Assembly (NCBI RefSeq): GCF_020852615.1
Contig: NZ_JADZAJ010000015.1
Coordinates: forward strand, 1 to 64,000
Length of the DNA stretch: 64,000 nt
Reading direction: 5' to 3'
Source of the DNA: Nitrosomonas sp.
GTDB lineage: Bacteria; Pseudomonadota; Gammaproteobacteria; Burkholderiales; Nitrosomonadaceae
The notes beneath the pieces were generated by a model that saw only the letters and a list, made by a program, of their open reading frames with translations, ran no database searches and had not been told where the DNA came from. Made by a program: the position numbers and the translations under genes. Numbering within the stretch: the stretch's first letter is position 1; each line of letters opens with the position of its first letter. Below, piece by piece: positions 52,505-56,929 of the stretch.

Positions 52505-53680
52505 TCAGATCACAATGACTTCCGGTAACGGAAAACCGTTGAAATTACTGGCATATGATGTTGTATAGGCGCCGGCATTAGGAATAAAAATGAAATCATC
52601 TTCCTGAACATCTTCAGGCAGCATCTCATCGTGCATCAGCACATCCACGGAATCACATGTCGGACCGGCAACTGACCAGGGAACCAGAGGCCCGTTGCGT
52701 TGCGTCAGGATTTCATAACGCAACCCTTCACTGACTTCAATGATGCCGCCGAATATCCCGGCATCCCAGTACATCCAGCGTTTGCCGTTACGGGTAGCAG
52801 TACCAACCACGCGGCACACAAAACACGCTGAATCAGATACCAGGTAACGCCCGGGTTCGGCCATGATGTGTATATCTTCCGGTAAATCAGCAATTGCCTC
52901 GTTGATAACCCCGGCTATGATTTCAATGGAAGGAATCGGTTTAACGTGGCGTACCGGATAACCTCCTCCCAGATTCAGCAGGCGTGGCTTCAGACCGGCC
53001 TCACGCATGCCGGCAAACACCGTTTTGGCACGTTCAATACCCACTCGCCAGTTTTGTGGATTACGGCATTGAGATCCCACATGAAAAGTCACACCGGCCA
53101 GATCTGCTTTCAGTCTGACAGCTTCATCAATGATTTCACTGACATCCACCAGATGTGTCCCGAACTTCCCTGCCAGCGGCCAGTCACTGCCGATATTGGG
53201 AGTATCAATACGCAGATACAGCTTGGCATCCGGCTTGATGCTGACGATCTTGCGCAGCTCTTCAACGCTGTCCAGTACATACCATTCAACCCCTTTTGCC
53301 GCAGCATACTCAATATAAGCACGTGATTTCATGGGGTTGCTGTAGAAAATTTCAGCAGCCGGCACCCCCAGCCCCATCAGCAGATCAAGCTCGGCGATTG
53401 AGGCAATTTCAAACCCCACCCCCTCCTCAATCAATGTTTTCAGCACACGTGGATCAGGATTGGCTTTGGCAGCGTAATGGGGATGTACACGCGGCATGGC
53501 AGCCTTGAATCGTCGGGCTTTGTTGCGAATGATACTGGTGTCGATCAGCAGGAAGGGCTGCTGATAACCCTGTTTTAATCTGGTGTCCACCAGAGTGAGA
53601 TCAATGCTGATCTCGGGGTGGGTATCAAAAATTATGCTGGTTTCTACTGGCTGATGTGCTGCAGTGGACTGTTTTTTCAT
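52505..53680 (-). CDS. PLP-dependent ornithine/diaminoacid decarboxylase (alanine racemase fold)
   Basis: This 391-aa fold-III decarboxylase has the PLP lysine in HYAAKANPDP, HVGSQCRNPQNW, the phosphate-binding LNLGGGYPV, PGRYLVSDSA, and the active-site cysteine in GPTCDSVDVL. It most likely decarboxylates ornithine to putrescine; lysine or dual specificity cannot be excluded. The start was moved to the ATG at 53680 with GGAGG 8 nt upstream. A promoter and a small upstream ORF precede it, suggesting translational control. It is convergent with fghA, and 52363-52504 holds no obvious terminator. Confidence 0.92.
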   Translation of the reverse strand: MKKQSTAAHQPVETSIIFDTHPEISIDLTLVDTRLKQGYQQPFLLIDTSIIRNKARRFKAAMPRVHPHYAAKANPDPRVLKTLIEEGVGFEIASIAELDLLMGLGVPAAEIFYSNPMKSRAYIEYAAAKGVEWYVLDSVEELRKIVSIKPDAKLYLRIDTPNIGSDWPLAGKFGTHLVDVSEIIDEAVRLKADLAGVTFHVGSQCRNPQNWRVGIERAKTVFAGMREAGLKPRLLNLGGGYPVRHVKPIPSIEIIAGVINEAIADLPEDIHIMAEPGRYLVSDSACFVCRVVGTATRNGKRWMYWDAGIFGGIIEVSEGLRYEILTQRNGPLVPWSVAGPTCDSVDVLMHDEMLPEDVQEDDFIFIPNAGAYTTSYASNFNGFPLPEVIVI

Positions 53681-53705
53681 GAGAGCGCCTCCTGGCAATT
53701 ACCAA

Positions 53706-53771
53706 CTACGTTTCAGGGATATGAACATGTACCCAATCAGTCAGAACAAACAGGTTTATCTTGCTTCTCAT
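53706..53771 (-). CDS. Upstream ORF / putative leader peptide of the decarboxylase gene
   Basis: This 21-codon ORF is absent from the ORF track. Its ATG at 53771 follows AAGGAGG with ideal spacing, stronger than most sites in the window. The peptide starts MRSKINLFVL and ends HIPET, and its TAG lies 25 nt before the decarboxylase ATG. It falls between the predicted promoter and the main gene, so it must be on the mRNA. In enterobacteria the leader peptide SpeFL controls ornithine decarboxylase by ornithine-induced stalling; this peptide shows no evident sequence similarity to it. Function is inferred from position. Confidence 0.68.
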   Translation of the reverse strand: MRSKINLFVLTDWVHVHIPET

Positions 53772-53812
53772 GATGACCTCCTTATGGGCTACGGCATTTT
53801 CTAAAGGGACGC

Positions 53813-53840
53813 ATTATAGACCTGATTTTCTCATAATCAA
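53813..53840 (-). promoter_or_regulatory. Sigma-70 promoter of the decarboxylase transcript
   Basis: On the minus strand TTGATT (53840-53835) is followed after 16 nt by a perfect TATAAT (53818-53813). Runs of A and T just upstream could act as an UP element. Transcription would start near 53806, about 35 nt before the upstream ORF and 125 nt before the decarboxylase start. Confidence 0.68.
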
Positions 53841-54148: not shown

Positions 54149-54415
54149 ATGAAAGGAACTACCTTAGCCGCCATTTTTACGGCAGCCGCACTGCTTTTTT
54201 CTTTTAACAGCGCATTTGCCGGTAACGAAGGCCTGCCTGCCAGTCAGGTAATTGCTGCCATCAACACAGCCACTGCAGCCACTCCCGGGCTCATTCACGA
54301 AGTTGAAATCGAGCAGAAACTTGGAAAACTGATTGTCGAAGTAAAAATTATCGATGCCAAAGGCCAGAAAGTTAAGGTCAGAATTGATCCGGAAAAAAAT
54401 GCGGTAATGCAGTAA
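54149..54415 (+). CDS. Small periplasmic PepSY-domain protein
   Basis: This 88-aa protein has a signal peptide (TLAAIFTAAALLFSFNSAFA) and one PepSY-like domain: ASQVIAAINTATAATPG, then EVEIEQKLGKLIVEVKIIDAKGQKVKVRIDPE. PepSY domains are often protease inhibitors or sensors; no partner gene is nearby. AAGGAGA lies 8 nt before the ATG at 54149, which I prefer over the GTG one codon earlier. Confidence 0.83.
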   Translation: MKGTTLAAIFTAAALLFSFNSAFAGNEGLPASQVIAAINTATAATPGLIHEVEIEQKLGKLIVEVKIIDAKGQKVKVRIDPEKNAVMQ

Positions 54416-56152: not shown

Positions 56153-56929
56153 TCAGGCAAAAGAGGAAAAGTGTGTATTACTGTAACGACGGGTGCAGAA
56201 AAATACAGCACCCAGCCCCAGGGATAACAACAGCAATGTGCCGGGCTCACTGACCTCACGGGGATCACGAGGTTTTTCACGCCAGGTTAACAACGCCTGA
56301 TTATTCATCGGACTCACCGGGGTCAACTTGTAAAATTCCCACGTATCACTCACATAATTGTTGGGTATTGAAGCTATACCAGGTTTTCCATTTGAACCAG
56401 TCAGCCAGGTATCCGCTAAAGCCCGGGCACCATCAAAATCTGTTGTGGCTTTAAATGTCCCGTCTGACAGATTCCGTAAATTATCCCCTTCAAAGAAAAT
56501 TTCCCATAGAGTTAGCTGGAAAGCCGCATCATTTTTATTTGTACCCAAATCATTAAAGTGATTATCAAACAGCCAGCTAACCTGGGAGAGCTGTAAACCG
56601 GTCAGATTTGCTGGAGCAATGTCATAAGTCACGTTCCGGCCAGTTACCAGCCAGTGGTTTATATCAATACAAAAAGCTTGCAAAGAATTATTCCACTCAC
56701 CCCCTCCTCCAGATAGCACATTAAACTTAAACTCACCGGCACCCACTCCACCGTTAAGCGGTGTTGTTATGTTTCCCGATTTGGATCCATTAACAAAACC
56801 CTGATAATTCAATTCGATATTAACAGCCCAGCTTGCTGAAGCGAAACCAAGGGAAGCAATTGCAGCAGTTAAAACAGCCGTTTTCCGGATACCCCAGCCA
56901 AATTGTTTATGCTCTAAAAATAACTTCAC
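56153..56929 (-). CDS. PEP-CTERM sorted secreted protein
   Basis: This 258-aa protein has a signal peptide ending near SWAVN and a typical C-terminal sorting signal: VSEPGTLLLLSLGLGAVFFC followed by the basic TRR. The usual signal is VPEPG; SEPG is a known variation of the PEP motif. Such proteins are processed by exosortase and are thought to be attached to exopolysaccharide. The body resembles other PEP-CTERM proteins with a Cys in LQAFCIDINHW, and has no recognised enzymatic motif. It fits with the exosortase-associated glycosyltransferase at 42.5 kb. Confidence 0.88.
   Translation of the reverse strand: MKLFLEHKQFGWGIRKTAVLTAAIASLGFASASWAVNIELNYQGFVNGSKSGNITTPLNGGVGAGEFKFNVLSGGGGEWNNSLQAFCIDINHWLVTGRNVTYDIAPANLTGLQLSQVSWLFDNHFNDLGTNKNDAAFQLTLWEIFFEGDNLRNLSDGTFKATTDFDGARALADTWLTGSNGKPGIASIPNNYVSDTWEFYKLTPVSPMNNQALLTWREKPRDPREVSEPGTLLLLSLGLGAVFFCTRRYSNTHFSSFA

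Follow-up and report, generated by a model that had tools for sequence, protein, structure and literature searches.

The stretch of DNA analysed here (the window: 64,000 nucleotides, positions 1 to 64,000 of contig NZ_JADZAJ010000015.1 from a Nitrosomonas sp.) carries a gene for an ornithine decarboxylase (ODC), the enzyme with which polyamine synthesis begins, and a short open reading frame with its own ribosome-binding site stands directly in front of it. The question raised by this locus is whether this upstream ORF (uORF) is a chance reading frame or a translated leader that controls the decarboxylase gene. The original prediction had described a TTGATT-16-TATAAT promoter, an AAGGAGG site, a 21-codon uORF and a 25-nt gap before the gene, and all of their coordinates were found to be correct on the minus strand. 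The features of the locus are as follows.

53835..53840, minus strand: -35 element TTGATT, read from the sequence and present as TTGATT in 148 of 189 related leaders
53813..53818, minus strand: -10 element TATAAT, read from the sequence, with a spacer of 16 nt; TATAAT in 185 of the 189 leaders and 16-nt spacing in 181
53777..53783, minus strand: Shine-Dalgarno sequence AAGGAGG of the uORF, inside the conserved block AGGAGGTCATCATGA, from sequence and conservation
53706..53771, minus strand: leader ORF of 21 codons, peptide MRSKINLFVLTDWVHVHIPET, stop codon TAG at 53708-53706, from sequence and conservation
53688..53693, minus strand: Shine-Dalgarno sequence AGGAGG of the decarboxylase gene, from the sequence, with a conserved stop-to-start distance
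52505..53680, minus strand: ornithine decarboxylase of the alanine-racemase fold, 391 residues, from Pfam and a search for relatives of known structure

The AAGGAGG sequence is near-perfect and lies 5 nt ahead of the uORF ATG at 53771. The ATG of the decarboxylase is at 53680, separated from the uORF stop codon by 25 nt, and the AGGAGG of this gene lies 12 nt past that stop codon. The promoter is of the sigma-70 type, and transcription would start near 53806. Three promoter-like matches were found in the region against 2.9 expected by chance, so that a single match alone is at the chance level, and the significance of the promoter derives from its conservation across the 189 leaders. Within the window the ODC gene stands alone on its own strand, with convergent and divergent neighbours. 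Adjoining its promoter region, a divergent gene at 54149-54415 of the plus strand encodes a small secreted PepSY-like protein, with a weak Pfam match just under the cut-off.

The product of the downstream gene matches Pfam Orn_Arg_deC_N at 8e-58 and has, in addition to this PLP-barrel domain, the C-terminal sheet domain; the active-site motif GPTCDSVDV is retained, in agreement with the GPTCDxxD motif of the ornithine decarboxylases of the alanine-racemase fold. The best solved relative is the lysine/ornithine decarboxylase from Vibrio vulnificus (2PLJ, 5e-68), followed by eukaryotic ODCs. Its score for diaminopimelate decarboxylase is under the cut-off of that family. The genome from which the window was taken (2.09 Mb, 93.9% complete) contains no arginine decarboxylase (speA) above the cut-off and no spermidine synthase (PF01564); putrescine in this organism therefore probably comes mainly from this ODC.

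Conservation of the uORF was analysed in the family Nitrosomonadaceae, where the ODC is matched at 1e-50 in 120 of 125 genomes, a few of these matches being distant paralogues. The upstream regions of 70 ODC loci, found via the ODC, make up the family set. An ORF that starts with ATG and has exactly 21 codons is present at 69 of them, and the sole exception (L036) appears to be frame-shifted. In these 69 uORFs, Met1, Pro19 and Thr21 are invariant and His17 is found in 67; residue 20 is Glu (36) or Val (33) and nothing else. The C-terminus is a near-invariant (H/D)-I-P-(E/V)-T, which for the leader ORF of the window is H-I-P-(E/V)-T-stop. On both sides the conservation ends: at the family loci the information content is at background 5' of the Shine-Dalgarno sequence of the uORF and 3' of that of the ODC. 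Judged by this comparison, the 21-codon uORF is real and its conservation is far beyond chance.

The conservation is seen at the level of the peptide. When pN/pS was calculated from independent close pairs, the family value was 0.32 in the frame of the uORF vs 1.09 and 1.14 in the two shifted frames; in the other families it was 0.43 vs 1.19 and 1.22. The two halves of the peptide differ: in the family set the ratio is 0.47 for codons 2-11 and 0.17 for codons 12-21, so that selection is strongest by the putative stall site, as is characteristic of a leader peptide of the arrest type. The corresponding values in the other families are 0.64 and 0.20, the latter being partly built in by the search pattern described below, which leaves the family set unaffected because its loci were found through the ODC. 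These ratios indicate that the peptide is under purifying selection, concentrated at the C-terminus. Conservation of the ORF in close relatives, the decisive comparison for the original prediction, is seen at 69 of the 70 orthologous loci. The peptide contains no recognisable known arrest motif, a point against stalling.

The stop codon is fixed as well. At the loci found through the ODC the uORF ends with TAG in 84 of 85 cases (68 of 69 in the family, 15 of 15 at further loci and the single uORF of locus L245). The stop codons of the ODC genes at the same loci vary (TAA 46, TAG 36, TGA 35), and TAG terminates five of the 43 long ORFs in the window. After the uORF TAG the next base is C in 72 of 117 cases.

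How far the uORF reaches beyond the family was followed in two ways. In a sample at the level of the order, the ODC is present at 1e-80 in 44 of 200 genomes, and the uORF is found in most of the other betaproteobacterial families examined that have this ODC. Among 23 further loci found through the ODC (L077-L099), 15 have a uORF of 16 to 24 codons ending with (I/T/L)-P-(V/E/L)-T-TAG, and one additional uORF with the conserved C-terminus and TAG lies outside the family at L245. The conserved C-terminus is absent from the other eight of the 23 loci, five of which (L088 and L095-L098) retain the start block GGAGGTCATCATGA exactly or almost so. In addition, the pattern GGAGGTCATCATG-N33-63-CCNGWNACNTAG was searched in 85,462 species genomes without requiring a reading frame. 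It matched 116 stretches. All but one of them (115) are in frame, and 114 are found on the strand of this ODC, immediately upstream of it. One of the remaining two (L208) is out of frame, has no ODC and is a chance match; for the other (L124) the DNA that was fetched contains no ODC. Among the matches listed, the taxa are Nitrosomonas, Nitrosospira, Nitrosovibrio, Nitrosomonadales, Burkholderiales, Betaproteobacteria and plain Proteobacteria. Since Pro, (Glu/Val/Asp), Thr and TAG are fixed by construction in this set, statements on invariance are limited to the loci found through the ODC. At the class level this ODC was found at 1e-70 in only two of 232 genomes, the genome of the window included, and such a uORF is absent from several xenologues and from the more distant ODCs found in other classes, at about 34-47% identity. 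On the ODC tree, the state of the uORF has to change four times, compared with 12 in shuffles. This distribution fits a single old origin of the uORF with a few losses.

In 143 distinct leaders the uORF stop codon is mostly 14-30 nt, with a mode of 22 nt, from the ODC start. An intrinsic terminator would therefore not fit into this short gap. RNAalifold on 97 diverse leaders across families gave no consensus structure; folding by group gave weak signals in two of four groups, with pairings that differ between the two. Rfam searches produced no relevant hit for the leader, at the gathering threshold or at relaxed ones. When a stop codon occupies the A site, the ribosome shields some 10-12 nt of mRNA on the downstream side, and a 30S initiation complex extends about 20 nt upstream from its start codon. 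Because the uORF stop is so near the ODC start, the footprints of an arrested ribosome and of an ODC initiation complex would overlap.

The C-terminal constraint, the fixed stop codon, the fixed short distance and the single downstream gene together argue for termination arrest in cis. The uORF probably encodes a cis-acting leader peptide of the arrest type, which would slow RF1-dependent termination at UAG and whose stall would block translation of the ODC, resulting in feedback repression. Ribosomes would load at the very strong Shine-Dalgarno sequence of the uORF and translate its 21 codons. The nascent C-terminus (H/D)-I-P-(E/V)-T would then delay RF1 in terminating at the UAG that follows; the signal is probably either the product, putrescine or another polyamine, or the substrate ornithine. 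The ribosome parked at UAG, covering its downstream footprint, would overlap the ODC ribosome-binding site located 12-25 nt downstream, so that ODC translation would be blocked and putrescine synthesis repressed. Upon efficient termination, the ODC site would be freed, or the ribosome might be handed over to it. The stalling, the sign of the regulation and the ligand (putrescine, other polyamine or ornithine) are what we infer from the sequences; the simplest assumption is that the product represses, given that the uORF stop and the ODC ribosome-binding site overlap and that the enzyme seems to serve biosynthesis. Sensing of ornithine or a polyamine by the uORF, as was originally suggested, is plausible in view of its invariant link to the ODC. 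The constant length of 21 codons in the family might, speculatively, come from the geometry of the tunnel or from ribosome queuing.

The leader closest in logic is SpeFL (ORF34) of Enterobacteria and other Gammaproteobacteria, which is also a short ORF ahead of an ornithine decarboxylase gene. SpeFL arrests at its stop codon with ornithine through inhibition of RF1-mediated release (PMC8429421). SpeF is the inducible enzyme, and control of its gene involves Rho and a leader that is long and structured (PMC6386406). The original prediction of a SpeFL-like leader-peptide control with an unrelated peptide is well supported by the conservation of the uORF and by a similarity to SpeFL no higher than that of shuffled sequences (the best local score of the family peptides, 20, was matched by 276 of 300 shuffles); the architecture, on the other hand, is unlike that of SpeFL. 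SpeFL has 34 residues vs 21 here, and its leader is long and structured, in contrast to the modal gap of 22 nt and the lack of conserved structure at the present loci. The leader here is short and has no conserved structure, the peptide is much shorter, and its stop codon lies about 22 nt from the ODC start; direct blocking of that start site, or coupling to it, is therefore likelier than induction of the SpeF type by RNA refolding and Rho. Arrest could nevertheless have the opposite sign: ornithine would stall the uORF ribosome and raise ODC production, for instance because the start region stays accessible or Rho is blocked. This is how SpeFL/ORF34 works in enterobacteria (PMC6386406, PMC8429421), and the conserved peptide and the bias to UAG fit it equally well. 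However, the enterobacterial leader between uORF and speF is long and structured, whereas that found here is about 14-30 nt without conserved structure, and a ribosome parked at the uORF stop would cover the ODC start; induction of this kind is therefore considered unlikely.

Models in which the peptide does not arrest its ribosome account for parts of the data. The very strong, conserved Shine-Dalgarno sequence, the short conserved distance from stop to start and the lineages that keep the start block alone would all agree with plain translational coupling, in which ribosomes loaded at the uORF end translation close to the ODC start and then initiate anew, the sequence of the peptide being irrelevant. 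This model leaves unexplained the pN/pS of 0.17-0.20 in the C-terminal half, the invariant Pro19 and Thr21 and the near-exclusive UAG, and its probability seems low. A small protein acting in trans, such as a regulator that binds ODC in an antizyme-like role, would account for a conserved peptide that always adjoins the ODC, but it would need neither the fixed UAG seen in 84 of 85 uORFs nor a fixed position right before the gene, and is very improbable. No more credit is given to an RNA element, a riboswitch or a protein-binding site in which the ORF is incidental: the nucleotide sequence of the start block AGGAGGTCATCATGACA is itself conserved and two of the four groups gave weak folding signals specific to the group, but the 97 leaders lack a common structure, the two signals are different pairings, the substitutions follow the reading frame and Rfam has no match. 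Termination arrest with repression of the ODC is thus the reading that we prefer. Its most specific form, that (H/D)IP(E/V)T-UAG is a bacterial sensor of polyamines or ornithine made of the nascent peptide only, evolved independently of SpeFL and arresting RF1 termination so that the parked ribosome shuts the ODC without an RNA switch, is put forward tentatively.

Other known systems share single traits with this leader. In the alphaproteobacterial odc1 (uORF-25-1), a short peptide of constant length is likewise conserved and encoded just at the ODC start; its RNA forms a hairpin and pseudoknot, and the uORF of 11 residues starts from a UUG two nt before the main UUG start (PMC8632094). The present uORF, in contrast, has its own upstream AUG and Shine-Dalgarno sequence, has 21 codons and stops before the ODC start, and it shows neither the hairpin and pseudoknot that sequester the ribosome-binding site nor the paired UUG starts. 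TnaC of the tryptophanase operon is likewise a short peptide, and a small metabolite takes part in its arrest at the stop codon (PMC8429421). It differs in having 24 residues, using UGA and RF2 and being read out by Rho; no similarity to TnaC above shuffles was found. Among eukaryotes, the uORFs of yeast HOL1 and of AZIN1 are polyamine-responsive, each at a conserved motif of its C-terminus, and the former inhibits release at P-S-stop (PMC11550727). These uORFs of polyamine genes, with the C-termini PPW (AZIN1) and PS-stop (HOL1), have the functional logic proposed here; they differ in depending on eukaryotic ribosomes, eIF5A and scanning, and have no homology to the present uORF.

Searches of the openly accessible literature found no earlier description of this betaproteobacterial leader peptide, and the uORF would represent an apparently undescribed ribosome-based switch for polyamine production. 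If this is true, ODC genes would have a different, unrelated translated leader in each of the three classes Alpha-, Beta- and Gammaproteobacteria, a strong convergence on sensing of polyamine metabolism by nascent peptides, and the eukaryotic polyamine uORFs would have their bacterial counterpart in this system. The short, nearly invariant (H/D)IP(E/V)T-UAG would then be a minimal termination-arrest sequence responsive to a metabolite, and it would indicate how ammonia-oxidising bacteria control putrescine.

The 5' end of the uORF may be conserved in its own right. The 15-nt block AGGAGGTCATCATGA occurs once in the genome of the window, at this locus; the idea that it is a general ribosome-binding motif was rejected, as it occurs at most once per genome in the 21 genomes searched. 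Conservation of the start block as nucleotides includes the ACA of codon 2 and the AGG/AGA of codon 5 in GC-rich families, which suggests a constraint at the nucleotide level. At the pattern-set loci of GC-rich Betaproteobacteria, Thr at codon 2 is nearly always ACA and Arg at codon 5 always AGG/AGA, whereas those peptides use CGC/CGG for the Arg of codon 16 almost without exception and never use ACA for the Thr of codon 21. The start block and the first codons are kept with loss of the conserved C-terminus at L088, L095, L096, L097 and L098, and at L095 the ORF continues as far as the ODC start, which it overlaps in an ATGA. These lineages count against the arrest model: either the system can be dispensed with, or the 5' block functions separately and may have a role of its own.

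Two other features of the minus strand of the window should be mentioned. A CRISPR array of 21 repeats, matching Rfam CRISPR-DR9, is located at 61-1532, and the protein encoded at 56153-56929 has a PEP-CTERM sorting motif at its C-terminus.
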